DNA from: a virus | DNA length: 34,238 nucleotides | Reading direction: 5' to 3' (one strand) | IMG/VR virus record: IMGVR_UViG_3300030109_003742 | Coordinates: 1 to 34,238 of that record | In this document: positions 7,638-26,350 of the stretch, piece by piece | How the letters are laid out: every line of letters begins with the position of its first letter | Position numbering within the stretch: the first letter of the stretch is position 1 | Program-made: the position numbers and the translations under genes | The notes under the pieces: model-generated | What the model was told of the DNA's origin: nothing | Databases searched by the model: none | Seen by the model: the letters and a program-made list of their open reading frames with translations, nothing else

Positions 7638-7781
7638 TCATGTAGTTTTTGGTTCGATTAAATCAAAATACACTTTTAAAATAATTGCTCCTACAGCGCA
7701 CATAAGTATAGCAATAACCCCAAACGATAAATAAAAAACTATAAAAATATTAAGTGCAACATTCTCTAAGAAATTTTTCAT
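7638..7781 (-). CDS. Small single-TM membrane protein
   Basis: 47 residues with ATG at 7779-7781, sharing an ATGA overlap with the stop of the polymerase gene, which indicates coupled translation. One long hydrophobic segment (about residues 8-37) is followed by a short charged tail ending EPKTT. Function unknown; its place after polA suggests an early accessory membrane protein. Confidence 0.5.
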   Translation of the reverse strand: MKNFLENVALNIFIVFYLSFGVIAILMCAVGAIILKVYFDLIEPKTT

Positions 7782-9706
7782 TTTGCATTCCCCCAATTTT
7801 CTCCCACCCCAACATCAATCTTAGATGGGATTAACATTTTACTAACGCATTTTTCCATCGTTTCTTTAATTTTAGGTATGTCTTCCTTGTTAATAGAAAA
7901 ACACAATTCATCATGTACCGTCAACATTGGCGTAAAACCCTTTACATAACAGTCTAATAACGCCTTTTTAGTTTGATCCGCACTCGAAGCCTGTATTAAT
8001 CGGTTCAATGCCTTGTAAGTATTGGCTACTCGATAAAACTTAGGATTGCGGTACTCCCAATCCTTTTCCCTTTTTTCTACAGGTAACTCTAAAATAGCGT
8101 CCCACTCACGCTCTAACCTATCTACATGTAAGAACTCTGAAGATTTACTGCCGTAAACACCCTTCTCTCGCATCGGAAAACGACATTTCCTCCCCAATAA
8201 CGTCCTAACCTCCTTACGCATCTCAGCTGCTTTCGATACAGCACTTGCTACTTGTCGAATAAAAGGAACTTTTTCATCGTACTCATTACGTATTTCTTTA
8301 GTTTCTTCCATGGACAAATTACCTAATACATCTGATAACTTGCCTAAACCCATACCATACATAATTCCTAGATTAATCGTTTTAGCTACTGTTCGCTCAA
8401 CATTAGCCAAATCAGCAACCATTTGATGAAAATCAAAATCCTCTTGATGATATTGTTTGATAATTTCTTGTACCCGATAGTCCTCGCTTGTACTAGGTAA
8501 TAACCCCACATAGTGCATCAACCACCGTGGTTCTTGGGCGGAGTAATCAAAACTACCCCACAACTTACCCTCTTCAGGTAAAAACAAACCTCGAATCATT
8601 TCTTTTATCACAGGGTGGCGAGCAGGTACTTGCTGTAAATTGGGGTGACTAGAAGAAAATCGTCCTGTAACAGTCCCTCCAAGCTCAGAACGTAGCTGAT
8701 TAAACTCACAATGAATACGACCATTATGCTGATGGCTAAGAATAGTATCCACAAAAGTTGTGTTCGCTTTGTTAAATTCTCTGATTTCCAAGATTTTACC
8801 CGCAATCGGATGTTCGTGATTGCTGAGGAAATGTTTTGTAAAGCTAGGTGCATTCGATTTTTTAGTGCGTTCATAAGTTAACCCCAATGTGTCAAAAGCC
8901 TTTGCAAGGCTAGTTGCGTTCCACGGTTCAATATAAAAACCTACTTCTTTTTTTACTTCCTGTAATAACTTCTTTTCTTTACCTTCCAAAAACTTCTTAG
9001 TTTTATCCGCTTTTTCTAAATCCACTCGAATGCCTGTTTTTCGCATCTCGAATATAATAGGGACTAACGATTGTTCTAATTTTAAAATCTCTTCACAACC
9101 GTCTTCTATTAAATTTTTATAGAGCACTGACCATAAATCATATGTCAGTCTAGCGTCTGTCTCTGCATAGTTAGCTACTCTAGCAGCGGGTAGCCTCCAC
9201 ATATCCTTTTTCGCATCTACTCCATGTTGCCCCGCAGTATCTTTTAGTTCTTTATCGGCTTTTCGTTGTCCAAGGTACGTGCTCCCTAATGCGTCTAAAG
9301 AATAGCTAAAACGGTTCTCGTCTAGTAACGCAGCAGCAATCATGGTATCCATTATCGTGCCTTTGACCTCGATACCCTCTGCATGTAGCCATCCTAAATC
9401 GTATTGAGCGTTATGAAATACGATGTCCATTCCGTAGCTCAACTGGTCTTTTAGCCATTTGACCACCGTATTAGGGCTTAGATTGCCTCGGCCTTCATGT
9501 CGTATGGGGAAATACCACTGGCTATCTTTCGATGCAACAGCGATACCGATTAAGTGCCCATCGTCCCTGACCCACCCTGGCCCCTTACTTATTAGATTAG
9601 GATCTTTAGTTTCTACGTCAATCGCTAATAGTTTTTCTTTAGATAAATCAGGAAATGATTCTGGGGGAGTCCAGATATTCTCATCAAAAATAAGTTCTTC
9701 TTGCAT
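7778..9706 (-). CDS. polA: DNA polymerase I family (PolA) with 3'-5' exonuclease
   Basis: 642 residues, copying the phage genome. The proofreading domain has Exo I AIDVETK (Asp30, Glu32), Exo II HNAQYD (Asp103) and Exo III YAETD (Tyr180, Asp184). Polymerase motif A is FDYSAQE (Asp387), motif B spans RTVAKTINLGIMYG and motif C is TVHDE (Asp599, Glu600). There is no 5'-3' exonuclease domain, as usual for phage PolA. The residue matching E. coli Phe762 is Leu446, a variant linked in viral surveys to slower synthesis and often to temperate or slow replication. The gene overlaps the upstream helicase by TAATG and belongs to the - strand replication operon. The identity is firm. Confidence 0.96.
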   Translation of the reverse strand: MQEELIFDENIWTPPESFPDLSKEKLLAIDVETKDPNLISKGPGWVRDDGHLIGIAVASKDSQWYFPIRHEGRGNLSPNTVVKWLKDQLSYGMDIVFHNAQYDLGWLHAEGIEVKGTIMDTMIAAALLDENRFSYSLDALGSTYLGQRKADKELKDTAGQHGVDAKKDMWRLPAARVANYAETDARLTYDLWSVLYKNLIEDGCEEILKLEQSLVPIIFEMRKTGIRVDLEKADKTKKFLEGKEKKLLQEVKKEVGFYIEPWNATSLAKAFDTLGLTYERTKKSNAPSFTKHFLSNHEHPIAGKILEIREFNKANTTFVDTILSHQHNGRIHCEFNQLRSELGGTVTGRFSSSHPNLQQVPARHPVIKEMIRGLFLPEEGKLWGSFDYSAQEPRWLMHYVGLLPSTSEDYRVQEIIKQYHQEDFDFHQMVADLANVERTVAKTINLGIMYGMGLGKLSDVLGNLSMEETKEIRNEYDEKVPFIRQVASAVSKAAEMRKEVRTLLGRKCRFPMREKGVYGSKSSEFLHVDRLEREWDAILELPVEKREKDWEYRNPKFYRVANTYKALNRLIQASSADQTKKALLDCYVKGFTPMLTVHDELCFSINKEDIPKIKETMEKCVSKMLIPSKIDVGVGENWGNAK

Positions 9707-11235
9707 TATATTTGGTAATACCTGTTAGTTTGTGGCTCTATGAAATGTAATGTGTTTTTTGTACGAGTAACTGCAACATAATAAATACGATGTTCAGTAT
9801 CTGGATTAGAAAGATAACTTTGATAAGCTGCGGGGGATAAATCTGGTATGACAACAATGTTTTCACTCTCTCCACCTTTCATTCCGTGAATCGTGCTTAA
9901 CTTTATGCGTGGTGATTCTAAGTTTTCTCCACGTTTTAAAGCACTTAGGATATACACTTGAGTATCAGTGTCAAGTTTGTCTAATGCAAAGTTCCAATCT
10001 TTTTCTCGATCTACCATCAATCCCATCGCATCTACAGCGTCTTGGTAACTTACCTCCGTTTCACTGTCCAAAGACATCATCATTTTTGAACGTGGCCCAA
10101 ACCCCCTTTTCACGCTTACGCCACTACTCATAAAAGAATAAATATTCCGAAGTTGCTGAATCGTAATGACATTTCCTTTAATCAGCCTTTGCCAATCAGT
10201 CACAGCGTTATATGTCTTGGTCGGAATAGACATCTTTCCGTTTCGAGAGAACACAATGCCATCATCTCGCAACATATTTGCGTAACCGCTTAAAATAAAA
10301 TTGGTTCTACACATGATTGTCCATTCGCCTTCATGCAACGGGACATCCCACAGACTCTGGTGATAACGCACTAAACCATCTTCTGATTTTGGATTCCAGA
10401 CCTTTTGCTCTCGATTATAAATGCGACTAACAATACGCTGTGCCTCATGCCATGCCTGTTTTGGTAGCCTATGACTTTCTTCGAGGACTTGTTTTTCTTT
10501 TGTTGCCGTTAAAAATCGGCTAACGTCTGCGCCTTGAAACCCCATGATGGCCTGATCATCATCGCCCGTAAAATACTTAATTCTGGGCTTTCTCCTCAAC
10601 ACCTCTATCATATCCCACTGTAAAGTAGACAAGTCTTGCGCTTCATCAACAAACAACGCATCTATATCTATAGGTTCGTTACGAGCAATGAACTCCTCTA
10701 TCATGTCCGTAAAATCAACTTTATTATTTGCTTTCTTATAACTTTCATAAGCATTAATTAGGCGTATAAACTCCGCCCAATCCATTGAAAAAGATGCAAA
10801 TAACCTAAACGACTCATCTAAATCTAATCGTTTGTTCCGCCCAAGTTGATATATATTAAGATACTGATCGCCCTTCGAGATGCCTATTACATCAAAATCA
10901 GACTCTACTTCAGACATTTCCTTACCGTTAAAAGCAACCCCTGTAGCAGTGCCAACCGTCCATAAATCCTTGCCCCTGACTACATCATCTTTCTTATATT
11001 GACCAGTTTTAAACGCCATAGAATGTAACGTCTGGAAATAAGGTAATGAATCCTCCGATACAGATAAGTCACGGCACACCCTATCACGGCTCTCTTGCGC
11101 TGCTTTACGAGTAAACGATACGCAAGCAATACGCTCTGGCGATATGCCCTCTTCAATACATTGCTTAATTAAAAGAGTGTTAGTGTGAGTTTTTCCGCAT
11201 CCCGGTGGCCCTAGTATTGTTCGTTCAACTATCAA
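9706..11235 (-). CDS. UvrD/Rep-like superfamily 1 DNA helicase
   Basis: 509 residues, an ATP-driven DNA unwinding enzyme. Walker A is GPPGCGKT (residues 9-16), motif Ia includes SFTRKAAQE, motif II is DEAQD (197-201) and motif III GDDDQAI (224-230). The C-terminal half has the STIHGMKG and YVAVTRTK motifs of UvrD-type enzymes. The start is TTG, 11 bases inside the previous gene, supported by the closeness of Walker A to the N-terminus and by apparent coupling. No DnaB-like replicative helicase is seen in the window, so this enzyme or the SF2 one may unwind the fork or act in recombination. Confidence 0.92.
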   Translation of the reverse strand: MIVERTILGPPGCGKTHTNTLLIKQCIEEGISPERIACVSFTRKAAQESRDRVCRDLSVSEDSLPYFQTLHSMAFKTGQYKKDDVVRGKDLWTVGTATGVAFNGKEMSEVESDFDVIGISKGDQYLNIYQLGRNKRLDLDESFRLFASFSMDWAEFIRLINAYESYKKANNKVDFTDMIEEFIARNEPIDIDALFVDEAQDLSTLQWDMIEVLRRKPRIKYFTGDDDQAIMGFQGADVSRFLTATKEKQVLEESHRLPKQAWHEAQRIVSRIYNREQKVWNPKSEDGLVRYHQSLWDVPLHEGEWTIMCRTNFILSGYANMLRDDGIVFSRNGKMSIPTKTYNAVTDWQRLIKGNVITIQQLRNIYSFMSSGVSVKRGFGPRSKMMMSLDSETEVSYQDAVDAMGLMVDREKDWNFALDKLDTDTQVYILSALKRGENLESPRIKLSTIHGMKGGESENIVVIPDLSPAAYQSYLSNPDTEHRIYYVAVTRTKNTLHFIEPQTNRYYQI

Positions 11236-11482
11236 CCGTAGTATCCAAAAAGAAAAATCTTACGTTTTCTTCGTCCACTGTTACCGACCTAATTTTATAT
11301 TTTTGTCGATCTTCATCCATGCTTTTCCAATGCCTAAAGCTCGAATACGGGATAGATACTTTGTCTTTTGGAAATATAAAGCTGTCCCCATGCGATAAAG
11401 TATCCCAGTCATACTTTGTTCGTCCTCCCTTTTTTTTAGGGACGCTTATGTCTTTTTCTATTTTAATTTCTTGGTTAAACAT
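11225..11482 (-). CDS. Small hypothetical protein with GDSF motif
   Basis: 85 residues: an acidic start, then KKKGGRTKYDWDTLSHGDSFIFP and a strand-rich end. Small phage proteins with a GR-K-Y-W/F-D...GDSF pattern are common in replication regions and may bind nucleic acid, but I cannot name the family. It overlaps both neighbours (8 bases upstream, 11 downstream) and so belongs to the helicase-polymerase operon. Confidence 0.6.
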   Translation of the reverse strand: MFNQEIKIEKDISVPKKKGGRTKYDWDTLSHGDSFIFPKDKVSIPYSSFRHWKSMDEDRQKYKIRSVTVDEENVRFFFLDTTVDS

Positions 11483-11717
11483 TCCGCTTTTTTCTCCTTT
11501 CCTTAGCCTGTCTATTAATCTTTTCTCTTACCATCTCATTCTCTTCTTCTACACCAACCATGATAGAAGCCACTGCTTTGCGCTTAGTAACATCATCAAC
11601 ATCGTCCAATATGACAACTTGTTTTTCAGTGGGTCGCCACGTTTCCCAAAACTGTTTGACCTTATCTTTCCATTCCCACCGAACATCTTTTCCGTCTACC
11701 GTTACATAAAACTCCAT
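11475..11717 (-). CDS. Small hypothetical protein, first gene of the helicase-polA operon
   Basis: 80 residues. The N-terminus is Trp-rich (RWEWKDKVKQFWETW); the C-terminal half is a charged helix ending in NRQAKERRKKRNV. An AAGGAGATTAAC ribosome binding site and a good sigma70-like promoter lie directly upstream. Function unknown. Confidence 0.6.
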   Translation of the reverse strand: MEFYVTVDGKDVRWEWKDKVKQFWETWRPTEKQVVILDDVDDVTKRKAVASIMVGVEEENEMVREKINRQAKERRKKRNV

Positions 11718-11748
11718 GTTAATCTCCTTTGTATAGTTTGTATAGACT

Positions 11749-11777
11749 ATTATACTTCATTTATAACAAGAGTTCAA
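11749..11777 (-). promoter_or_regulatory. Sigma70-like promoter of the helicase-polA operon
   Basis: Read on the - strand, TTGAAC is followed by a 17-base spacer and a perfect TATAAT, about 30 bases before the start of the 80-residue gene. The leader after the -10 box holds repeated CTATACAAA-like units and an ATAGT/ACTAT inverted pair that could be an operator. This is a separate promoter inside the long - strand block. Confidence 0.65.
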
Positions 11778-11803
11778 ATCTTTATTAATGTTGTTTTACA
11801 TTG

Positions 11804-12346
11804 TTAGACTTCATTTCCCCAAACATCCCAACCTTCTTTTTCATGCCTTGCGAATAGTTCTATCCTTGGTAAGTCGCCAGAATGTTGCACAATGATGTCC
11901 CTGAATACTTGCGGTTTTTCGCTGTGCTTACGGCTGTTAATTTCATAGACTGCGCTACCTTCTGTCTCGATGACGTTTTTCAAATCTTTTCGCAAGCGTG
12001 GTAATTTGCCTTTTACTGCAAACAAAACGTGTTCGGTTGCTCCTCGAAAGTAATACCCCAACCCCATTTCTATATCTTTATTTGAGTATTGTTTGACCCA
12101 AGTAAGCGTCTGTTTGTATTTAAAGCCCCAAGCATCACAAACGGCATGAGCTTCTCTCACAAACGAATTGGTATACCAAAGATATAAATGACAATTATCA
12201 TCGGCTATGTCTTGCACTGAAAGTTCCGCAATGCTTTTAGCGGTCATCGAATCGTAGTGGTGATGCACTGCACCATTGCCCCAGTTTTCTTTATAGCTCC
12301 ACGGTGGATCTGCATAAATAATGTTATATTTTTTGCCCTCAATCAC
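11804..12346 (-). CDS. MT-A70 family adenine methyltransferase
   Basis: 180 residues from a GTG start with an AAAGGAGACAAAG binding site. The catalytic DPPW motif is at residues 13-16, within YADPPWSYKENWGNG. The fold continues with LYLWYTNSF, a WVKQ segment and the late HSEKPQVFRDIIVQHSGDLPRIELFAR block that is typical of MT-A70 phage and bacterial enzymes. It should transfer a methyl group from SAM to N6 of adenine. In phages such orphan methylases commonly protect DNA from host restriction. The target site cannot be read from the sequence. Confidence 0.9.
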   Translation of the reverse strand: MIEGKKYNIIYADPPWSYKENWGNGAVHHHYDSMTAKSIAELSVQDIADDNCHLYLWYTNSFVREAHAVCDAWGFKYKQTLTWVKQYSNKDIEMGLGYYFRGATEHVLFAVKGKLPRLRKDLKNVIETEGSAVYEINSRKHSEKPQVFRDIIVQHSGDLPRIELFARHEKEGWDVWGNEV

Positions 12347-12399
12347 CTTTGTCTCCTTTGGATACTTTTTACATAAAGGGTTGATTTTTAAAAAAGTGT

Positions 12400-13926
12400 C
12401 TAAAACGGGACTTCCTCATCGAATGTCACCTCAGGTAATTCAACCTCGCCCTTATGTATTTCTGGGATGCACCACACTCTTACCTTGCGCCATTTGTCTC
12501 TCGAGTCTTTAAATCGATATTCCTTATCTGCCGTTTTACCACCATTCAACTCTTTCAACCTTTCCGTTATCTGACCTCGAGTGTAAGAATTGAACCCATG
12601 ACGTTTTAAAAATTCCTGTAAAGCTGACAGTTTAAAGTAAGTAAATCCTTCATCAGTCCAAGGCTTACCTGTCTGTAACTCTTCAGGAGCAGTTGCTCGA
12701 ATACGGCTCGTACAAAAAACTTCCAGTAACTCATTAAACAATCCTTTATGAGTTAACTCCTCTGGCACTGTTATTCTTGTTGCACTGTCTAATAAATTAT
12801 CTACCAAATCACGCCAATCGTTTTCCTTCATGCGAACTGGCATACGATAAGTTTGCTCCATACATGCCCTTTGAAACTCTATTTGCATCTGTAACTGCTT
12901 AGTCGTTAGTTCGAGCCTCGCTCCATCTACGTCTACAAACCACACTGGAGGTTCCGATTCTACTACCGTAAGCCCTCCCAATATCGGAAAAGCCTGATTG
13001 CTACCTATGCCAAACTTTCGATTACGACATAACCCACGATTGCAATGGCTCGATAATGGCTCTTGCTTACACATATAGTAATAGTCTTTCTTTTCCAATC
13101 GGCCTTGCATATCCACCACATCCTTCGCAGGTAATGGTGGAGTACAGTAATTCTGGTTATGCGCCTCGAGTTTCTCCTTCCAATCCGATGGTGAACTTAA
13201 CTTATAGTAAATAGCAATGTTCATTAACGTCTGATTACGACCACCCTCTGGTATCCCAAACTCTGTTAACTTCTGTAAACAAGGTGGCCCTTGGGGTAAT
13301 AAATCATCATCATCATGCACCCTAAACTCATCAAGTTTCTGTGGGGTCATCATATGCTTATCTACTTGCTCAAAAAATTCCTCAAGCGAGTAAGCCTCCC
13401 CATCACTGCGAATTGCATAACGAGTAGGATACTTAACGTCAAAGTAAGGTAAGTTAATAAAATTCCCTACATCTCCACGCTCTACCTTCACTTCCTCTTG
13501 TTTAGGAAATATCTCACATCCACCAAAACCCAAAGCTGACGCGAACTCAGCCAGTTTGTCTCGCATCTCAGCTGCCGTTATCTTCTCAGTTACAAATAGA
13601 AAACAATGAGCACCCCCACTCTTAGAACGACAAGTCACCAAAGGTAGTTTTAACCTGTCTATCTTTTTCTTCACGGCGATTAAATCTAAGTTATAATCGT
13701 CTATGTCTAAAGCACCAAAAACACAGTGATTAGACTCGTCAATAGGAATCGAGCCTATACCTTGTTTACCATCAAAATGCTTTTGCACAAGATCCGTGGT
13801 CAACGGTTCACGAACAATAAAACTCTTGGCTTTCATCTTGCCATTTTTGGCACTATCTAAAACCTTAGTTTGCCCGTGTGCTGACTGACACCCTGAGAAA
13901 ATAGTATAAAATTTTGTTACACTCAT
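12400..13926 (-). CDS. Archaeo-eukaryotic-type primase (TOTE-like)
   Basis: 508 residues, starting at ATG 13924-13926 (MSVTKFYTIF). A nine-residue upstream extension is possible but would be coded by a hairpin. The N-terminal primase fold shows LDIDDY (about residues 73-78, metal-binding Asp) and CRSKSGGAHCFLF (about 99-111, the conserved His). A Cys cluster, C286, C295 and C300, in MCKQEPLSSHCNRGLC suggests zinc binding. The C-terminal region may bind DNA or a partner. It resembles the primase domain of TOTE systems, and primes replication for the adjacent PolA. The assignment is good; the C-terminal role is unclear. Confidence 0.8.
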   Translation of the reverse strand: MSVTKFYTIFSGCQSAHGQTKVLDSAKNGKMKAKSFIVREPLTTDLVQKHFDGKQGIGSIPIDESNHCVFGALDIDDYNLDLIAVKKKIDRLKLPLVTCRSKSGGAHCFLFVTEKITAAEMRDKLAEFASALGFGGCEIFPKQEEVKVERGDVGNFINLPYFDVKYPTRYAIRSDGEAYSLEEFFEQVDKHMMTPQKLDEFRVHDDDDLLPQGPPCLQKLTEFGIPEGGRNQTLMNIAIYYKLSSPSDWKEKLEAHNQNYCTPPLPAKDVVDMQGRLEKKDYYYMCKQEPLSSHCNRGLCRNRKFGIGSNQAFPILGGLTVVESEPPVWFVDVDGARLELTTKQLQMQIEFQRACMEQTYRMPVRMKENDWRDLVDNLLDSATRITVPEELTHKGLFNELLEVFCTSRIRATAPEELQTGKPWTDEGFTYFKLSALQEFLKRHGFNSYTRGQITERLKELNGGKTADKEYRFKDSRDKWRKVRVWCIPEIHKGEVELPEVTFDEEVPF

Positions 13927-13950
13927 AAAAAATGCCCCCCGAAGGGGGCA
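13927..13950 (-). terminator. UUCG-loop hairpin with T-run ahead of the primase gene
   Basis: On the - strand, TGCCCCC, a TTCG loop and GGGGGCA form a perfect 7-bp stem, followed by TTTTTT that runs straight into the ATG of the primase. It has the form of an intrinsic terminator or attenuator between the ssDNA-binding-like gene and the primase gene. Its G-rich arm is also the only Shine-Dalgarno-like sequence for the primase, so folding could control both transcription and translation. Confidence 0.7.
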
Positions 13951-13958
13951 CACCTCAA

Positions 13959-14738
13959 CTAGAAGGGTGAATTTTCTGGTGTTTGAGATTCAAGTAACTC
14001 TGGCTCCTGGCTGGGTATCGCCAGTTTTACTTGACCTTCAGAAATCGCACCGTGGAACTCCTTGCACTCATTAAGGAGATCAATCGATGGTATCACCTCT
14101 TCGTGTTGTGGATTAAACGTGTACCAGTTACCTTTGTCGTTACCTTCTTCGACAGTAGTCAACCTATAGATGTTTGCAAAACTAGCCATAGTATTGCCCT
14201 CTATTTTTTGCATTCCCATCAAAGAATTCCAAGTTCGAGACTTTTTCAAGCTCGTCTTTTTCATATCAACTACGGCACTCTCTAGCTCATAATTGTTTTT
14301 TTCCACTTCGTGAACAATTTTCACATAGTGTTGTGCGGTCTTAACTAACTCATTACCGCTTTTCAACAACTCCATGTTGTTTTCGTCACGAACCACTTCT
14401 TTAAGTTGCGGATCATTAGGTGGTATCTCCCCTACGAACCCACCGCCCTGACTTCTCGGTATAAACTCGAGATACTTCAACTGGTAATAAACAGGAATCA
14501 CTAATACCCCTACATCACCATTCCAATGTTTCCTAGTAACAGTATTAAAGATATCTCCCTGACTTGCGCCCTCGATATACGCACTGTCTTTTTTATTTAC
14601 CTCAGGACTCATCGCCTGAACAATCCGTAAAAAGGGCATTTGCAGATCATCTGCTGTGACCTCTTCCATTCCCATATTTGCAGTGGCCGTTAAAGCCTCC
14701 TGTAGTTTCTTTTCTGTTATGCCTTGTGCCATTTTCAA
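13959..14738 (-). CDS. Possible phage single-stranded DNA-binding protein
   Basis: 259 residues. A helical N-terminus is followed by a strand-rich middle with many aromatic residues (WNGDVGVLVIPVYYQLKYLEF; the block TSLKKSRTWNSL) that could form an OB-like fold. The C-terminus is acidic and ends PENSPF, resembling the acidic, Phe-ending tails of SSB proteins. It lies between a coiled-coil protein and the primase in the replication operon, the usual place for such a gene. The family was not recognised for certain; the assignment rests on tail, size and context. Confidence 0.5.
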   Translation of the reverse strand: MKMAQGITEKKLQEALTATANMGMEEVTADDLQMPFLRIVQAMSPEVNKKDSAYIEGASQGDIFNTVTRKHWNGDVGVLVIPVYYQLKYLEFIPRSQGGGFVGEIPPNDPQLKEVVRDENNMELLKSGNELVKTAQHYVKIVHEVEKNNYELESAVVDMKKTSLKKSRTWNSLMGMQKIEGNTMASFANIYRLTTVEEGNDKGNWYTFNPQHEEVIPSIDLLNECKEFHGAISEGQVKLAIPSQEPELLESQTPENSPF

Positions 14739-15301
14739 ACTCCTTTTATATCTACATAACTTCCAATTTGAGCGTCAAATAAATCTAATTTTATCTTTTC
14801 TTTATTCTCGACACTTTCTCTCACCACTTTTTTCAGAGTCTGTGGTTCGACCCATGTTTTAGAAACGACATCATACCCATGCCCTGATAACTCCGCCAGA
14901 AGTTTCAAAGCCCTCTCATCTTGACTCACGCCAAAACTGGCCGTGACATCGTTCTTTATGAAATCGCCCTTTCCCAAATCCCTGAGATGGTCTAACGCTT
15001 TTATTTTTAGAACAGGGTCTTTTGGCATACGAGCGGATACGTAGTTCTTTAGTTTGACCTTGCTATTTCCCGCCTGTAGTTCCGTAACCCCCATCTCTTG
15101 CATCAAATTCGGAATGCGCTCATATTTGTAAGCGTCATATTTTTTTCTCACACGCTTCACTTTTTCTTCAGCTTCTTCGAGTTCCTCTCTTAACTTTTCA
15201 GCCTCTTCTATAATCTGACTTAAATCACTTACATCTGCTGATTCTGTTTTTGCAAAATCCTTTGCATCTGCTTTTAACTCTTCAAACAATTCATCACTCA
15301 T
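14735..15301 (-). CDS. Coiled-coil protein with conserved phage domain, replication region
   Basis: 188 residues. Residues 1-25 are acidic, and about 30-58 form a strong coiled coil. A compact domain follows, with PNLMQEMGVTELQ, GKGDFIKNDVTASFGVSQDE, and PQTLKKVVRE near the end. I recall phage proteins of this plan next to recombination and ssDNA-binding genes, without known function. It overlaps the neighbouring genes by 4 bases on each side, showing tight coupling. A role in recombination or replication is inferred. Confidence 0.65.
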   Translation of the reverse strand: MSDELFEELKADAKDFAKTESADVSDLSQIIEEAEKLREELEEAEEKVKRVRKKYDAYKYERIPNLMQEMGVTELQAGNSKVKLKNYVSARMPKDPVLKIKALDHLRDLGKGDFIKNDVTASFGVSQDERALKLLAELSGHGYDVVSKTWVEPQTLKKVVRESVENKEKIKLDLFDAQIGSYVDIKGV

Positions 15302-15492
15302 AATATGCGATCCTTTACTTCTTCATAGATGCCATCAATCGTTGCTTGATAATCTTCCTTCGAGTAACCCGTAGGAATTTCTCTAGCTAATAAATGAAAC
15401 CTTGCAAGGTTACTTCTTGATGCAGCTATTCTAGTTTTCAAAGCTGCAACCTCTTCCTCTAAGTCTCTATTAGTTTTTCTTCTGATATTCAT
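15298..15492 (-). CDS. Small coiled-coil-like hypothetical protein
   Basis: 64 residues from ATG 15490-15492, which has a GAGG binding site at a good distance; a GTG four codons upstream would use up that site. Charged helical segment RDLEEEVAALKTRIAASRSN, then a short domain. It begins 16 bases after the last unit of the dual-repeat array on the same strand, so it is probably on the same transcript. Function unknown. Confidence 0.55.
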   Translation of the reverse strand: MNIRRKTNRDLEEEVAALKTRIAASRSNLARFHLLAREIPTGYSKEDYQATIDGIYEEVKDRIL

Positions 15493-15507
15493 CTTTTTCC
15501 TCACTTA

Positions 15508-16123
15508 TAACTCGCTCTGATAGTATGTTTCTATCATCGTAATTGGCTCGCTCTACATGCTTGTTTCTGTCAACCAAAGTGGCTCGCTCTTTGTCGCTGT
15601 TTCTATCATCCTACTTGGCTCGCTCTATTTAATTAGTTCTCTCTGTTGTTTTGGCTCGCTCATCAATCCTGTTTCTATCATCGTTATTGGCTCGCTCCTT
15701 ATTGATGTTTCTATCCTTCGCGTGGCTCGCTCATTTACCCTGTTTCTATCATCATTGTTGGCTCGCTCAAAATTTTTGTTTCTATCTCATCTTCTGGCTC
15801 GCTCGGTTTACTTGTTTCTATCAGGCCGTCTGGCTCGCTCTTCTTTTTTGTTTCTATCGCGACCACTGGCTCGCTCACATTTCTTGTTTCTATCAAGCGT
15901 ACTGGCTCGCTCCGCATATGTGTTTCTATCCTTCGTCCTGGCTCGCTCTTAGGCGTTGTTTCTATCAAGCTGTCTGGCTCGCTCAGCGTACCTGTTTCTA
16001 TCCTGCTTGATGGCTCGCTCATTGTAGATGTTTCTATCTAATTTAATGGCTCGCTCCTATCTCATGTTTCTATCCGATCGCATGGCTCGCTCGCGGGACT
16101 TGTTTCTATCTGTTGCGATGGCT
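15508..16123 (-). repeat. TIGR-like dual-repeat guide array, about 17 units of 36 bp
   Basis: On the - strand the array alternates GATAGAAACA and GAGCGAGCCA (10 bases each), with a variable 8-mer after each, giving a 36-bp period. There are 17 copies of each 10-mer. All 34 variable 8-mers differ from one another; one, at 15716-15722, is 7 bases. Copies are exact except at the distal end: GAGAGAACTA, GACAGAAACA and GAGCGAGTTA. Both 10-mers, including the degenerate copies, keep the pattern GAnnGAnnnA. The array starts at the stop codon of the upstream gene, where AGCCA of a partial repeat overlaps TAG. This matches TIGR arrays, whose roughly 36-nt tigRNAs carry two short spacers. The - strand orientation follows from the adjacent gene; processing is inferred. 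Confidence 0.9.
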
Positions 16124-16943
16124 AAAAAGGTGGTTCAATCTTATGGGCATGACCTCCATGCTCTAATACAAATGGGTTCGGTGGGTTCTTACCATACTCA
16201 TGCTTGTACCACACCTCATGCAGATGTGAGAGAAACAGTTTCACTGCATAACGGGTAGACCTCGCCTGAATATGTGCTGGTGGCAACTTCCCATTAATGT
16301 AATGCTTGTATGCCTCTGTCGTTTTCTTAAAATTCTTTCTCTCGAGCATAGCCTCTGCCTGATCCGCAAACGCTCCCTCTTCATTACGTTTAATTTCTGA
16401 CTGCTTACGCTCCTTATATACCTTACCGTAAAAAGCATTCTCGTTTCCCGATACCTTGACAAAGCTCTCACCCAACTTCCAACACAACACTTTTAATTGT
16501 GCATTAAATGGACGCTTGGTTTTCTTCTTCCACTCCATCGTTGGGTCAAGCCCTGCGAATCGCCAGATGGCTCCTGCTGTGGGTGCTCTTGTGATATCAA
16601 TGTGTGCCACCAACCCCGATGCAATCACCTCACCGATACCAACTACTGTGCGGATTCTTTTGCCAATAGGATGTGCATTGGAATAAACATTCAATGCTGA
16701 CTTTACATTTCTTTCTAATACCGTGGACTGCGTAGACAACCAAAATAAAATGTCGTGTGGCTCTTCTCCAATCTGTCTTATCTGATTGTTCGCCCGTATC
16801 CTACTACCTTGCATTTGATAGTATGAGTCCACTAAAAATCTAGCTTCATCATCCGTCATAGTACTGGCGGCATTTCGTAAGTCTTTATCTAAAGTGGCTA
16901 CTGATGACCTAATCTCTTCTACTGTTATCTCTTCATTAAACAT
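16122..16943 (-). CDS. Tas-like (TasA-type) RNA-guided DNA-binding protein, IS110 C-domain relative
   Basis: 273 residues with an AAAGGAGAAAG binding site. Residues 1-92 are helical and coiled-coil-like. Residues 97-134 hold a helix-hairpin-like core, VVGIGEVIASGLVAH then IWRFAGLDP, typical of the IS110 Transposase_20 domain and similar in plan to Nop domains of box C/D snoRNPs. The region from 140 to 250 is basic. The RuvC-like DEDD domain of IS110 is absent, no Ser follows GLDP where IS110 has its catalytic serine, and no HNH motif is seen. Tas proteins share this Nop-like core and accompany TIGR arrays, and the array begins at this stop codon. A nuclease-less TasA-type DNA binder is the best reading; a plain transposase remnant is less likely. 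Confidence 0.82.
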   Translation of the reverse strand: MFNEEITVEEIRSSVATLDKDLRNAASTMTDDEARFLVDSYYQMQGSRIRANNQIRQIGEEPHDILFWLSTQSTVLERNVKSALNVYSNAHPIGKRIRTVVGIGEVIASGLVAHIDITRAPTAGAIWRFAGLDPTMEWKKKTKRPFNAQLKVLCWKLGESFVKVSGNENAFYGKVYKERKQSEIKRNEEGAFADQAEAMLERKNFKKTTEAYKHYINGKLPPAHIQARSTRYAVKLFLSHLHEVWYKHEYGKNPPNPFVLEHGGHAHKIEPPF

Positions 16944-16968
16944 TACTCTTTCTCCTTTAATCTATCGC

Positions 16969-16998
16969 TTGTGTTTTACGATGTTTTGGCAGTATAAT
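16969..16998 (+). promoter_or_regulatory. Rightward promoter in the tas/helicase divergent region
   Basis: TTGTGT, an 18-base spacer and a perfect TATAAT lie about 40 bases before the + strand gene at 17037. The -35 box is weak. It shares its -10 region with the opposing leftward promoter, so the two could compete for polymerase. Confidence 0.45.
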
Positions 16999-17019
16999 AT
17001 GGGAATTGATGAAATGCAA
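16991..17019 (-). promoter_or_regulatory. Leftward promoter for the tas-like gene and array
   Basis: On the - strand, TTGCAT, a 17-base spacer and TATACT stand about 48 bases before the tas-like start. The -10 is good and the -35 modest. The transcript would include the tas-like gene and the array. It overlaps the rightward promoter. No separate promoter for the array itself was seen. Confidence 0.45.
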
Positions 17020-17036
17020 TACAAGGAGATAAAAAA

Positions 17037-17267
17037 ATGTCAGATAACAAAAGTTGGTTAGATGAGTATAAGATACCTGAAAGCTGTTTGGAAGCTATTA
17101 GATTGAATGAAGGGCTTCGAGACTTAGAGTTGTTTAAGCTCGGTGTAACCTTTGGGGCGAAGGTCGCATTAGAACAAGCGCAAAAGATAGTGAGCAATCC
17201 AAACAAGAGAAAAGTAACTATACAAGAAGAAGACCCTCAGGATATTAAGGTAGGTCTTACAGCTTGA
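17037..17267 (+). CDS. Small hypothetical protein
   Basis: 76 residues with an ACAAGGAGAT binding site. Visible: helical LDEYKIPESCLEAIRLNEG, then a helix LFKLGVTFGAKVALEQAQKI, and an acidic, strand-like tail. First gene of the + strand helicase operon, divergent from the tas-like gene. No family recognised. Confidence 0.65.
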   Translation: MSDNKSWLDEYKIPESCLEAIRLNEGLRDLELFKLGVTFGAKVALEQAQKIVSNPNKRKVTIQEEDPQDIKVGLTA

Positions 17268-17380
17268 AGATAGAAGTTACTATCTCTGTCGATACAGAGT
17301 CTGGGGACGACCATGAGCTTGTCCTCAGACTCATCGAAGCATTGGAGAAGTTGAATGATAAAATATCAATTCAAAACTGA
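17264..17380 (+). CDS. Possible 38-residue peptide, TTG start
   Basis: TTG overlaps the stop of the upstream gene (TTGA), and the frame runs into the first bases of the helicase gene. The product is amphipathic (VDTESGDDHELVLRLIEALEKL) and looks like a strand-helix unit. It fills an otherwise empty 87-base gap with two-sided overlap, which favours coding, but there is no independent support. Confidence 0.4.
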   Translation: MKIEVTISVDTESGDDHELVLRLIEALEKLNDKISIQN

Positions 17381-18809
17381 ACCCTATCAACACCAAAAAG
17401 AAGTGTTGCAAAAATGTTGGAACTCGAAGAACTATGCGTGGTTCATGGAAATGGGAACAGGCAAATCTAAAGTCTGTATCGATAACGCAGCTACACTATT
17501 CGAGAACAGATTAATTGATACCTTGGTCATCACAGCACCTAAGGGAGTCTATCGTAACTGGGCAGAACAAGAGATACCCACGCACCTACCTGACCGTATC
17601 GAAAGAAAGATAATGGTATGGAAACCTTCTAATTCAAAAAAGATTGAAAAGGAACGACAGGACTTTTTAGAAACTTGCGAAGAGTTAAAAATATTTCTGA
17701 TTAACATCGAAGCACTGTCCACGAAAAAAGGATGCCAGTACTTACAAAAAGTATTAATGCGCTCATGCTCTATGTTAGCAGTAGACGAATCAACGACCAT
17801 TAAACAGCCCACTGCAAAACGGACCAAGAACCTTATCAAGCTCAGTGAGTTTGCAATGTACAAAAGAATTCTTACAGGTTTCCCTATTACCAAATCGCCT
17901 CTCGACTTGTGGGCGCAAGTGCGGTTCCTGTCCAAAAATTTATTGGGCGATGTAGGCGAGTCGTTTCACAAATTTCAATATCGCTATGCCGTAGTTGTAA
18001 GAAGACATCTACAATCACATAGCTTCCAAGATGTAGTGGGGTTCAAAAACATTAAGCAGTTGAACTCCCTGTTGCAACATTTTTCTTCTCGCGTATTAAA
18101 AGAAGATTGCCTTGACCTACCCGAAAAGATTTACCAGGTAAGAGAAGTTGCCATGAGCACTGAGCAAATGCGTATCTATGAAGAGATAAGAAAATATTGT
18201 GTGTCGCATCTTGACGATCAGGAATTCATGACTACTCGAAACGTCATGACACAACTACTTCGATTACAGCAAATACTATCTGGTCACTTCAAATCAGATA
18301 GTGGTGAAATTATTAACGTGGCCGATAACCGTATCGAAGAACTCATGTCCGTGTTGCAAGAGGTACAAGGTAAGACGATTATCTGGTCACGCTTTCGATA
18401 CGATGTTATCCGTATCTACGAAAGACTTATCAAAGACTATGGTAAAGACTCCGCAGTAAATTACTTTGGAGACACGACCGATGAACAACGGTCAAAGGCC
18501 ATTGAACAATTTCAAAATGGTGACGCTCAGTTTTTTGTGGGTAATCCACAAACAGGTGGTATGGGTATTACTCTTACCTCTGCACAGAATGTCATCTATT
18601 TTGCCAACTCTTTTGATCTTGCGGTGCGTACTCAGTCAGAAGACCGAGCGCATCGTATAGGTCAAAAGAACAACGTCACGTACATCGACTTTATCTGTAA
18701 GGGCACTGTCGATGAACGCATTGTAAAAGCACTCAAAAATAAAATGGATATCGCCACAGAAGTCATGGGCGAAGAAATAAAGAACTGGTTATCAGAGGTT
18801 AAAAAATGA
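17355..18809 (+). CDS. SNF2/SWI2-like superfamily 2 helicase
   Basis: 484 residues. Walker A MGTGKS (residues 33-38) within the Q-motif-like HQKEVLQ...AWFMEMGTGKSK block; motif Ia VITAPKGVYRNW; motif II DES (144-146) in LAVDESTTIK, the variant seen in phage SNF2-like enzymes; motif III LTGFPITKSPLDLWAQ. The C-terminal half has IIWSRF, a GGMGITLTSAQNVIYF block and motif VI EDRAHRIGQ. It should use ATP to translocate on double-stranded DNA and could remodel DNA in replication, recombination or displacement of bound proteins. ATGA overlap with the next gene. Assignment to the family is firm; the precise role is unknown. Confidence 0.92.
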   Translation: MIKYQFKTEPYQHQKEVLQKCWNSKNYAWFMEMGTGKSKVCIDNAATLFENRLIDTLVITAPKGVYRNWAEQEIPTHLPDRIERKIMVWKPSNSKKIEKERQDFLETCEELKIFLINIEALSTKKGCQYLQKVLMRSCSMLAVDESTTIKQPTAKRTKNLIKLSEFAMYKRILTGFPITKSPLDLWAQVRFLSKNLLGDVGESFHKFQYRYAVVVRRHLQSHSFQDVVGFKNIKQLNSLLQHFSSRVLKEDCLDLPEKIYQVREVAMSTEQMRIYEEIRKYCVSHLDDQEFMTTRNVMTQLLRLQQILSGHFKSDSGEIINVADNRIEELMSVLQEVQGKTIIWSRFRYDVIRIYERLIKDYGKDSAVNYFGDTTDEQRSKAIEQFQNGDAQFFVGNPQTGGMGITLTSAQNVIYFANSFDLAVRTQSEDRAHRIGQKNNVTYIDFICKGTVDERIVKALKNKMDIATEVMGEEIKNWLSEVKK

Positions 18810-18961
18810 ATACCGAAAAGTACAAGAGTGTTGCAGTGAAAAAAGAAGTCTGGGAAAAGCTATGGAAAATATCAAAAGACAATGAACGTAGCCCAGCTTC
18901 ACAAGTAGCATGGTTCGTGAAACATTACGCTAAAATTAAAAAAGCACTTGCTGAGACATAA
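18806..18961 (+). CDS. Ribbon-helix-helix-like small protein
   Basis: 51 residues, ATG at 18806 inside the stop of the helicase gene (ATGA). A strand-like SVAVKKEVW, then two helices around SKDNERSPASQVAWFVKHY, fit an Arc/CopG ribbon-helix-helix fold, which binds DNA as a dimer. It could regulate the nearby promoters. The 3' end overlaps the convergent Mom-like gene by 26 bases. Confidence 0.55.
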   Translation: MNTEKYKSVAVKKEVWEKLWKISKDNERSPASQVAWFVKHYAKIKKALAET

Positions 18962-19592
18962 CACTGTCTCCCGAATCATAACGCTTGGTATCTCCTTTAG
19001 GATACGACTCCACAGGATAGTTGAGTAACGACAAGAGTTCCCTCTTCTCGCGTTTGTTTCCACAAAAGAAAACGTAACGGTGCTTTCGGGGTCGTTCGAC
19101 CACTTGATATCTGTCGGGGTTCGATATACGCTCTTCAAGCGACACTTGGTCGCACAAAGTCTTGCTGTGCTTGTTCGAGCCTATCTCACGCCACTCCGTC
19201 CTCTTATCACTTAACCCCGTATAAATAAAGTTAGTCGCCTGATATATATAGCCTATGTGGTCTACACTGGTATCCGCATAACTGACCACGATCCTTGGCC
19301 TCGGCAGTTGCTTCAACGCATTGCCTACCAAATAGCTCGCTTCATTCTTTCGGTTATGCTCGAGACACAATCGGTTTAACTCCAAGACCTGATGGCTACG
19401 CTCCTCACCACAAATGCCTATCGTCAAGGAATAAGAAGGGGGCGAACCAAAAGTCACCACCCCCGTCAGTGTGCGTCCCTCAAATATTCCAAAAGCATAA
19501 GAAATCGATGGCACTCGCTTGGCGTAATGCTTTTTGAGTAACCATTCGTGCGTTTCCCACCCCCTGATAGGTTTAACGCTCCACGTAGGCAT
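18936..19592 (-). CDS. Mom-like GNAT-fold DNA modification enzyme
   Basis: 218 residues. Recognisable blocks: WLLKKHYAKRVPSISYAFG, the GVVTFGSPPS segment, LELNRLCLEH, RIVVSYADTSVDHIGYIYQA and NFIYTGLSDKRTEW. This plan matches the Mom-related acyltransferase-fold proteins of phages. Mu Mom modifies adenine and hides DNA from restriction. The first codons overlap the end of the upstream gene by 20 bases. Together with MT-A70 and ArdC it suggests several layers of restriction avoidance. The family is recalled from motifs, and the actual base modification is not known. Confidence 0.65.
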   Translation of the reverse strand: MPTWSVKPIRGWETHEWLLKKHYAKRVPSISYAFGIFEGRTLTGVVTFGSPPSYSLTIGICGEERSHQVLELNRLCLEHNRKNEASYLVGNALKQLPRPRIVVSYADTSVDHIGYIYQATNFIYTGLSDKRTEWREIGSNKHSKTLCDQVSLEERISNPDRYQVVERPRKHRYVFFCGNKREKRELLSLLNYPVESYPKGDTKRYDSGDSVMSQQVLF

Positions 19593-21069: not shown

Positions 21070-21627
21070 ATGAAAAGACGAGTAGATAGGATTGCCGAAG
21101 AGATAGAAGATAGCCATAACCGAAAACTCACTAACCGACAAAAAGAATTTGCAAGACACTATGTAGACGGCACTCACTCAAATGCCGAATGTGCTCGTTT
21201 GGCAGGATACTCCGATAAAAATGGCATCGCTAAAAACAAAGCCTATTCGTTGCTAAATGGTGCAGAATTCCCCCACGTACTCGAGTACATAGAGGAGCTT
21301 CGAGAAGAAAGGGAGAAGAAGTATGGCGTAACACTTACAGGACAATTAAAAAGGTTTAGAGAACTGTCTATTAAGGCGGAAGAGGAAAACCAATTCTCCG
21401 CAGCTGTGAACGCTGAAAAAATCCGATCTTCTCTTGGTGGCCTTACTATTGACCGTAGGGAAACCAATCATTATCACGCAATAGAAAACATGAGTAGGGA
21501 AGAAATTGAGAAACGGCTGGGCGAACTCAGGAAAAGTCACCCTACTGCATTTATAGAGGGAGAAATAATCGATGAGTCAACAGCCAGAAGCCCAGTTTTG
21601 GAGCACATTGAAGAGGAATCTACCTAA
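21070..21627 (+). CDS. terS: Terminase small subunit
   Basis: 185 residues from ATG 21070, with AGGAG about 10 bases upstream; the open frame extends to 20836 but the extra part looks non-coding. The N-terminal region LTNRQKEFARHYVDGTHSNAECARLAGYS is the Terminase_2 DNA-binding pattern. A charged helical region follows, and the C-terminus is acidic. It should recognise the packaging site and feed DNA to TerL. TerL is encoded about 6 kb away, beyond many early genes, which is an unusual separation. The 3' end overlaps the next gene by 56 bases. Confidence 0.82.
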   Translation: MKRRVDRIAEEIEDSHNRKLTNRQKEFARHYVDGTHSNAECARLAGYSDKNGIAKNKAYSLLNGAEFPHVLEYIEELREEREKKYGVTLTGQLKRFRELSIKAEEENQFSAAVNAEKIRSSLGGLTIDRRETNHYHAIENMSREEIEKRLGELRKSHPTAFIEGEIIDESTARSPVLEHIEEEST

Positions 21628-22060
21628 TACATGGTTTGTTAATCGTATTGAAAACCGTATTGGTGGCGGTGTTCCTGATGTATATATCTGTATTAATGGA
21701 AAGTCAATTTGGTTAGAACTTAAAGTTACTAAATCACACCGTATTTCTATCTCTCCTAACCAGATTGCATGGCATTATAGCTATTATCAATCTAAAGGCG
21801 TATCTTTTTTCCTTGTTAAGGCCCTCCCGTCCTCCACCCTATTTTTATTTGAAGGGGTTCATGGTCGGGGGTTATCGGAGCATGGACTTCGGGTCGGGGT
21901 TCGGGATTCGGGGTCTGACGTTTCGGGGTTCGGGTTTTCGGGTTCGGGGTCTGACGTTTCGGGTTCGGGGTCTGATGTTTCGGGGTCGGGGTTATCGGTT
22001 CCGTGTGCATGGTCTGGCACTTCCTGTGTGGACTTGACCACGCACCTAGCCTCATTATAA
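21572..22060 (+). CDS. VRR-NUC nuclease with repeat-built C-terminal tail
   Basis: 162 residues with a GAGGGAGAAATA binding site. Residues 1-95 form a PD-(D/E)XK VRR-NUC domain: Glu6 in PEAQFW, GGGVPDVYI with Asp36, and WLELKV with Glu49 and Lys51, then QIAWHYSYYQSKGVSFFLV. Such nucleases cut branched or flap DNA in phage replication and recombination. Residues about 97-143 come from a G-rich DNA repeat and read GSGSDVSGSG-like; they are not part of the fold. The original stop was probably lost when the repeat expanded. Confidence 0.85.
   Translation: MSQQPEAQFWSTLKRNLPNTWFVNRIENRIGGGVPDVYICINGKSIWLELKVTKSHRISISPNQIAWHYSYYQSKGVSFFLVKALPSSTLFLFEGVHGRGLSEHGLRVGVRDSGSDVSGFGFSGSGSDVSGSGSDVSGSGLSVPCAWSGTSCVDLTTHLASL
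21857..22003 (+). repeat. G-rich TTCGGGG repeat tract inside the nuclease 3' end
   Basis: Imperfect units built from TTCGGGG, TTCGGG and GGTCTGACGTTTC, all with the G-runs on the + strand. There are well over ten runs of three or more G. Neighbouring DNA is AT-rich, so the tract stands out. It resembles two other tracts at about 22614-22740 and 24853-24880. Confidence 0.85.
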
Positions 22061-22613: not shown

Positions 22614-22740
22614 GTTCGGGGTGCCCCTTCGGGGGCATTTCGGGTTCGGGCTTTCGGGTTCGGGCTTTCGGGGTTCGGGCTTTCGGGGTTCGGGCTTTCG
22701 GGCTTTCGGGCTTTCGGGCTTTCGGGTTTCGGGGTTCTTT
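22614..22740 (+). repeat. Intergenic TTCGGG/CTTTCGGG repeat tract with hairpin
   Basis: About 12 to 14 units of TTCGGG, TTCGGGG or CTTTCGGG follow the stop of the previous gene. Within it, TGCCCC, TTCG and GGGGCA (about 22622-22637) form a hairpin with the same loop as the one before the primase gene. The rest of the 22606-22998 gap holds another stem-loop (22766-22790: ACCTAGC pairing with GCTAGGT), an unused AAAGGAGAT, an 18-codon ATG frame I do not call, and a promoter. Confidence 0.8.
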
Positions 22741-24790: not shown

Positions 24791-24853
24791 CCCTCTCGCT
24801 TTGAGCCTCACACTTTTTATACTTATATAGGCTCAGGGTGGGAGGGTTTTTTT
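24791..24853 (+). terminator. Strong intrinsic terminator with 18-bp stem
   Basis: The arms at 24791-24808 and 24829-24846 pair along all 18 positions, four of them G-U wobbles, around a 20-base AT-rich loop. Seven T follow at 24847-24853. It closes the small-gene transcript directly before the origin-like region. Confidence 0.85.
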
Positions 24854-24880
24854 CGGGTTCGGGTTTTCGGGGTTCGGGTT
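24853..24880 (+). repeat. Third, short TTCGGG tract beside the origin-like region
   Basis: Four G-runs (GGG, GGG, GGGG, GGG) separated by TTC or TTTTC-type loops, the minimum for an intramolecular G-quadruplex. It abuts the terminator T-run and lies about 65 bases before the parS palindrome. Confidence 0.7.
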
Positions 24881-24946
24881 TTTCTTTTCAGTTTCACTAT
24901 GTATGTAGTGTAGGTATATAGACCCTAAAAAAAAAAAAAAAAAAAA

Positions 24947-25372: not shown

Positions 25373-26350
25373 ATGAACGACAAACCATATTCAATAAGAC
25401 AAGATCAGCAGGAAGAGTATAAAACAATGATCCTGAATGCCATGGAGCAAGCTAAGGATCAGAAAATCCGATTCACTACAGGATGGGCATCCGATTTAAT
25501 CAATAATGGATGGCCAGTGAGGTTACAAGGATCAGAATGGGTACCTTATAGAGGTATCAATATTATATGGCTAAACATGTTCGCAGTAGCCAATGGATTC
25601 ACTAGTAACCAATTCGCCACTATTAGAGGATGGAAAAGGCTACATGGTGACGCGGTAAAGGCTAAAGAAAATCAAAAAGCAACGATCTCAATCTTTGCTA
25701 TGCCTAGCAAAGGTTCAAAAACAGATCCTAAGACTGGCGATGTAGAAGAGTTTGCTTATTATATTTATAAGTGTAATTACGTATATAATCGCGATCAGAT
25801 CGAAGGCTTACCAGTAGAATCAAAAAACGAAATAGAAGATCAACTAATAGAGTTTAACCATGAAGTGACTGAGCAATACTTAAATGCTCAAAATGTTAAG
25901 GTTACTCATGGCCACAATGGAGCGTTTTACAATTCCAATGATGACTATATTGGAATGCCTGACAAAACGTCATTCACTGGTACTGATCAACTAGGATCTA
26001 TGGAAACTTATTATTCTACTTTATGCCATGAGCATGTACATGCTACTGGCCATAAATCACGCCTAGCTCGACCAACCTTTACGAAAAAAACACGTACTGG
26101 TAAGGCAGATTATGCGCTTGAGGAATTAGTTGCTGAGATAGGATCTGCGCTACTTTGTGCAAAGTTAGGCATACTGGCAGATCCACAAAACCAACTAAAA
26201 GATCATGGTGCCTATCTTAACGGATGGATCAAACATGTTAAGGAATCAAAAGCGAAAGCATTATTCTCATCGTTCGCTAAAGCTACAGCTGCGATTGAAT
26301 ACATGGACAAACAGCAAGGCAACAATCAATTAGAGTTAGACGTAGCCTAA
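25373..26350 (+). CDS. ArdC-like antirestriction protein with zincin domain
   Basis: 325 residues with AAACAAAGGTAATATAAC upstream. The N-terminal half (about 1-140) has the ArdC ssDNA-binding pattern: IRFTTGWASDLINNGWP, YRGINIIWLNMFAVANGF, then FATIRGWKRLHGDAVKAKE. The C-terminal half is a metallopeptidase-like domain with HEHVH (219-223) and ALEELVAEIGSALL (about 248-261), which carries the third Glu ligand. ArdC proteins protect entering DNA from type I restriction and often ride with phages and plasmids. The gene is bounded by matching hairpins and is unusually rich in GATC, so it may have come in as a cassette. Confidence 0.88.
   Translation: MNDKPYSIRQDQQEEYKTMILNAMEQAKDQKIRFTTGWASDLINNGWPVRLQGSEWVPYRGINIIWLNMFAVANGFTSNQFATIRGWKRLHGDAVKAKENQKATISIFAMPSKGSKTDPKTGDVEEFAYYIYKCNYVYNRDQIEGLPVESKNEIEDQLIEFNHEVTEQYLNAQNVKVTHGHNGAFYNSNDDYIGMPDKTSFTGTDQLGSMETYYSTLCHEHVHATGHKSRLARPTFTKKTRTGKADYALEELVAEIGSALLCAKLGILADPQNQLKDHGAYLNGWIKHVKESKAKALFSSFAKATAAIEYMDKQQGNNQLELDVA

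Follow-up and report, generated by a model that had tools for sequence, protein, structure and literature searches.

What kind of element the regular array of short repeats in the genome of a marine phage represents, and against which DNA it might be directed, are the questions raised by IMG/VR record IMGVR_UViG_3300030109_003742, the 34,238 nucleotides of which were analysed as a whole and are referred to here as the window. Our analyses indicate that the locus is almost certainly a TIGR-TasA system (TIGR, tandem interspaced guide RNA), consisting of a dual-repeat array and an adjoining Nop-domain gene, tasA; it is a further member of a kind that has already been published (Faure 2025). The window TasA very probably performs guided binding without cleavage, and a role against competitors in the window phage is on balance probable. 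The combined reading, in which a TIGR-TasA system performs guided, non-cleaving binding and serves against competitors, is regarded as likely.

The array comprises 17 units between positions 15511 and 16123 on the minus strand, in which an edge repeat (GAGCGAGCCA) and a loop repeat (GATAGAAACA), each 10 nt long, alternate and are separated by 8-nt spacers, with a unit length of 36 nt. An initial annotation of the letters alone had described about 17 units in strict alternation between 15508 and 16123, and this description was largely borne out. The array is real, and the alternation and the limit at 16123 stand, but the true other end lies at 15511 and two loops are degenerate (GAGAGAACTA at 15643 and GACAGAAACA at 15571), the loop being exact in the remaining 15 of the 17 units; full exact edges number 16. 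On recounting, all 34 spacers were distinct, as had been reported, and the 36-bp period with 8-base spacers held overall (33 spacers of 8 nt) with one slip, a 35-nt unit with a 7-nt spacer (CGCGAAG). Because 16 exact edges and 15 exact loops stand in register across approximately 600 nt, this order cannot be a product of chance. TIGR-Tas systems are recognized by two distinct alternating repeats of 8-12 nt with short spacers, and by a 5'-truncated edge at the start and a 3'-truncated edge at the end of the array. The window array has both features, with the truncated edges AGCCA at 16123-16119, where it overlaps the stop codon of tasA, and GAGCGAG at 15517-15511, and the array of Acidobacteriaceae bacterium KBS 96, described below, starts likewise. 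The published norm for TIGR spacers is 9 nt, and the spacers of SpTIGR are 8 nt long. No Rfam or tRNA match was found in the window.

The adjoining Nop-domain (Tas) gene, a further recognized feature of TIGR-Tas loci, was absent from the initial annotation. This gene, tasA (16122-16943, minus strand), encodes a 273-aa Nop-domain protein without a nuclease domain, as judged by Pfam, the family profile and the predicted fold; the array begins within its stop codon and has the same transcriptional direction. By family profile, the closest solved relatives were TasR (9mty, E 5e-21) and TasH (21kl, E 3e-13). The predicted model (pLDDT, predicted local distance difference test, 86.6) was most similar in fold to TasH (Z 19.7) and TasR (Z 18.7), followed by IS621 (Z 13.6), Nop5 (Z 7.2) and Prp31 (Z 6.8); apart from the last two, matches below Z 8 were treated as generic helical similarity. 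From residue 28 onward, the model aligns to TasH from residue 65 and to IS621 from residue 125. Since the model begins just past the nuclease domain of TasH, we identify the protein, on its sequence and predicted fold, as a TasA; in keeping with that subfamily, neither Pfam nor the model revealed a RuvC or HNH nuclease domain in its 273 aa. The TIGR-Tas reading of the array is upheld, with nearly all of the checkable features present except the terminator. In public family libraries, TasA proteins are listed as transposase (phrog_4285, PF02371), and phage annotations will consequently mislabel them. Among plasmids, no TasA was found at E 1e-10.

Neither the phage setting nor the repeats are new, as the initial annotation had supposed they might be. 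Numerous TIGR loci of phages are described by Faure et al. 2025 (PMC12045711), and at least 80 IMG/VR contigs were found to carry relatives of the window TasA, most of them with arrays of the same repeat type. Repeat-family comparison placed the window edge one base from AAGCGAGCCA, the edge of Salicola phage CGphi29. The discovery paper describes box C/D covariation between edge and loop together with an extra base pair in the edge (PMC12045711), and this pattern was observed across 83 related loci. The repeat pair 3-8 is maintained in 78 of the 83 edges and 79 of the 83 loops through G-C, T-A and A-T, while the pair 4-7 is specific to the edge (79/83 loci, as C-G, T-A or T-G, versus 9/83 for loops). 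In addition, edge and loop end in the same base in 80 of the 83 loci (A/A in 59, G/G in 21, other in 3).

The spacers of close phages follow a different course from the repeats. With the exception of L002, which is the same phage as the window and has the same array, the loci sharing the window's repeats (L003, L004, L178 and L179) have no guide in common with it, and a single half-spacer of the window, TTAAATTA, recurs in L178. The initial annotation had held that identical spacers in distant phages would speak against guides; even phages with 85-89% identical TasA were found to have no unit in common with the window. Complete replacement of spacers between close phages, while the repeats stay fixed, is guide-like behaviour. 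Near-duplicate units, 1-3 bases apart in either spacer, were far commoner than expected by chance (L073, L077, L091, L089, L093, L049 and larger arrays), as if array units multiplied by duplication and then drifted; the differences between them showed no codon phase by position and hence no signal on target geometry. Very large TIGR sets were also observed (L044, L011, L013 and L020), in which as many as 79 different guides could be parsed from a single locus; some of these sets have arrays on both strands and both sides of tasA. Two acidobacterial TasA loci, L086 and L267, have the 8-nt spacer ATGGGCGC in common, placed in the A position in one of them and in the B position in the other.

Because swapped spacers still function and cleavage leaves 8-nt 3' overhangs (PMC12045711), the target was taken to be spacer A followed by the reverse complement of spacer B, a site of 16 bp (A.rc(B)), and mispaired guides served as controls in several of the searches. 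Pairing of spacers A and B with opposite DNA strands is supported at one site, in KBS 96, and at none for the window guides. This soil acidobacterium carries a TasA prophage with a six-guide array, guide 2 of which matches TAAAAGCAGAATCGAA at 16/16 positions in the A.rc(B) geometry, at 6329962-6329977 of its own host scaffold. The site corresponds to nt 26-41 of an 86-aa HTH_17 gene within a 10.2-kb element (L255:1952-12129), which is bounded by 26-bp attachment (att) repeats, one of them at the 3' end of tRNA-Glu. The element encodes an integrase, a repressor, an O-like replication gene, the terminase small subunit (TerS), a capsid protein (MCP, major capsid protein) and a protease; none of its remaining reading frames has the length needed for a terminase large subunit (TerL) or portal. 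Within the matched part, its capsid protein shares 68% identity with the one of the TasA prophage. With this gene content, the element may represent a capsid-forming satellite of some acidobacterial phage. Two other guides point to the gene adjoining the HTH_17 gene: guide 5 matches at 14/16 positions (14 contiguous) and guide 6 at 13/16. With guide 2 omitted, the other five guides fit the element better than all 119 of 119 windows of 10 kb, and fit its operon better than all 1,071 of 1,071 windows of 1.04 kb, the latter window having been picked after the matches were seen (both across 1.2 Mb of the KBS 96 genome); the opposite target geometry gave no signal in this comparison. The prophage's own homologous region, by contrast, shows 4-7 mismatches per guide. 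When 83 arrays were compared with 4.6 Mb, the KBS array-element pair ranked first over mispaired controls.

Processing of tigRNAs to 36 nt and two-strand pairing have been published for relatives (PMC12045711). By analogy with their biochemistry, the window transcript would be cut within each edge repeat into 36-nt tigRNAs, each bound by a TasA dimer, and the two spacers, A and B, would pair with opposite DNA strands of a 16-bp A.rc(B) site. The nuclease-free TasA would then bind, unwind and bend the site with no cutting. If KBS 96 is taken as a guide, the spacers may be directed against the early operon of a mobile element, a satellite or a competing prophage, that rivals the phage within one cell; TasA bound there would block transcription, excision or replication of the rival, the phage's own homologous genes being spared. 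We lean slightly towards the general view that TIGR-TasA arrays serve phages as a weapon, guided by RNA and without cutting, that is turned on satellites and rival prophages. On this view, the guides would converge on the operon for excision and replication in a related element residing in the same cell, the homologous genes of the phage itself would escape, and the window phage would be likewise armed.

Several points, among them the late choice of the 1.04-kb operon window, weigh against the combined reading. At the array itself, no terminator-like site was detected in 14500-17500, a rho-independent terminator being a usual, not strictly defining, TIGR-Tas feature, and no promoter above chance was found near the array. 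The initial annotation had proposed a search of paired 8-mers, opposite strands allowed, against host and co-occurring phage genomes; for the window guides, a search of 2.8 Mb of relatives gave no target above mispaired controls. No own-phage site with 0-1 mismatch was found for any array in both geometries with gaps of 0-2 (for most relatives, in approximately 20 kb around tasA), and exact own-genome sites were found neither in other TasA-bearing Acidobacteriaceae genomes nor in five metagenome-assembled genomes (MAGs). In Halomonas NO4, a 15-mer own-genome match lies in a region without a recognized mobile-element gene; it looks like chance. The KBS case is a single one, and the element, instead of being a satellite, could be what is left of a prophage. 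Moreover, from guide numbers and genome sizes, approximately 0.2 exact own-genome hits are estimated by chance for all lysogens and MAGs searched, and the exact 16/16 match alone is therefore weak evidence; the weight of the KBS case rests on the clustering of the other guides and on the location. Wider searches gave little more: target matches were not above mispaired controls in 160 TerL and DNA-polymerase relatives together with TasA contigs, nor in MCP relatives of the KBS phage, the KBS element itself excepted. Relatives of the element sought by the O-like gene in 237 family genomes and IMG/VR included none that was useful, and further TasA lysogens in three larger samplings yielded one partial match only beyond those known.

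In the window, tasA and its array form an inserted cassette of approximately 1.66 kb (15303-16963, minus strand) between the SNF2 and gp33 genes, as delimited by comparison with relatives L176, L177 and L179. Downstream of the array lies a Pam3 gp33-like gene (14735-15301, minus strand, DUF7307), the first of a leftward replication operon that continues in the same direction with gp34-like, primase, DNA methyltransferase, helicase and DNA polymerase A genes (7778-14738, minus strand, assigned by Pfam and PHROGs); the divergent neighbour on the other side encodes an SNF2-type helicase (17355-18809, plus strand, Pfam). By terminase and polymerase, the nearest named phages are pelagiphages HTVC023P and HTVC027P, phage 023Pt_psg01 and phage DSL-LC04. 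Among relatives with about 48-89% identical replication genes, the SNF2-gp33 spacing is approximately 390-450 bp (L176, L178 and L179). In L179, the flanks of the window's cassette are joined by 35 bp, and its own tasA and array lie elsewhere, beside MazG/Mom; in L176 and L177, no tasA was found in the stretch around the replication genes (21 kb for L177). The tasA-array cassette is accessory. The window also encodes a Mom-family DNA modification gene (18936-19592), a DNA methyltransferase (11804-12346) and an anti-restriction protein (25373-26350), which suggests that this phage is heavily counter-defended. Dispersed tandem repeats of the TTCGGGG / GGGCTTTCGGGGTTC type occur at 21888-21993, 22633-22737 and 24850-24882, partly within a predicted open reading frame (21572-22060).

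An alternative hypothesis is that the guides target the host chromosome, shutting down host genes or host defence, rather than mobile elements. In its favour, the lysogen searches, in three genomes, would reveal exact 16-bp host sites only, and most of these phages have no known host; however, the only exact KBS 96 site and the clustered near-sites fall in an integrated mobile element and not in core genes, and we consider host targeting unlikely. A second possibility is that TasA and its guides regulate the phage's own genes, as an RNA-guided repressor or as a DNA-bending aid to replication or packaging, which would fit the placement of the cassette ahead of the replication operon as well as the lack of a nuclease in TasA. 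This idea is largely refuted and very improbable: the own-genome searches described above gave no match with 0-1 mismatch, close relatives have the cassette at another place or showed none, and the spacers turn over completely between close phages. More remote still is an IS110-type transposon with a repeat-rich flank, in which the protein would be a transposase. The window TasA does match Pfam Transposase_20 and PHROG 4285 'transposase', but only the C-terminal Transposase_20 part is present, the N-terminal DEDD catalytic domain is absent, TasH and TasR score far above IS621, and the coupling of the gene to a guide array in most relatives cannot be explained by a bridge RNA. Finally, as the initial annotation had argued, neither a repeat region that encodes protein nor an array of the CRISPR type has more than a negligible probability, since the open frames of 95-131 aa that run through the array, owing to 36 being a multiple of 3, are interrupted by 35- or 37-nt units in the window array and its relatives, the repeats show RNA pairing at positions 3-8 and 4-7, and the two kinds of 10-nt repeat with 8-nt spacers differ from CRISPR repeats, which are 25-36 nt long with one spacer of similar size, with no Cas effector or adaptation protein among the proteins compared with PADLOC.

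We know of no earlier natural target of any TIGR system; the KBS 96 element is a first candidate on sequence grounds and, if the arrays are indeed weapons, would be the first natural target known to us. Among open-access papers treating TIGR-Tas in depth, which bound the literature covered here, satellites were not mentioned and no natural target was named. The window adds a clear phage member to the TIGR systems and shows an accessory cassette with fast spacer turnover, while KBS 96 provides a concrete candidate target in a sequenced isolate, in which the purpose of TasA guides becomes directly testable. The discovery paper (PMC12045711) explicitly left open which role nuclease-free TIGR systems play in nature and what their guides target.

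Among known systems, the window resembles the TIGR-TasA loci of Faure et al. 2025 (Science, PMC12045711), including FpTIGR of Flavonifractor plautii, in its solo Nop-domain protein with a downstream dual-repeat array, its truncated edges at both ends and its phage setting. It differs in having 8-nt rather than the 9-nt spacers of FpTIGR, in an array that starts in the tas stop codon, and in that no rho-independent terminator was found. With the TIGR-TasH system of Salicola phage CGphi29 (SpTIGR; structures 21kl, 9w04 and others), it shares a near-identical edge, 8-nt spacers, the fold and the phage setting; however, TasH carries an N-terminal HNH nuclease, whereas the window protein has none and is approximately 22% identical to TasH. 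TIGR-TasR (9mty) has the Nop fold and box C/D-type repeat ends in common with the window, and the A.rc(B) target geometry was assumed from it, but TasR has a RuvC domain, cuts DNA and uses 9-nt spacers, in contrast to the nuclease-free window TasA with its 8-nt spacers. The IS110/IS621 bridge-RNA recombinases share a Nop-like RNA-binding domain with the window TasA (Z 13.6), while the window has no DEDD recombinase domain and, in place of a bridge RNA, an array. In its proposed logic only, guided non-cutting binding against rival elements would resemble a system named in Faure et al. 2025, the proteins and guides of which are unrelated to those of the window.
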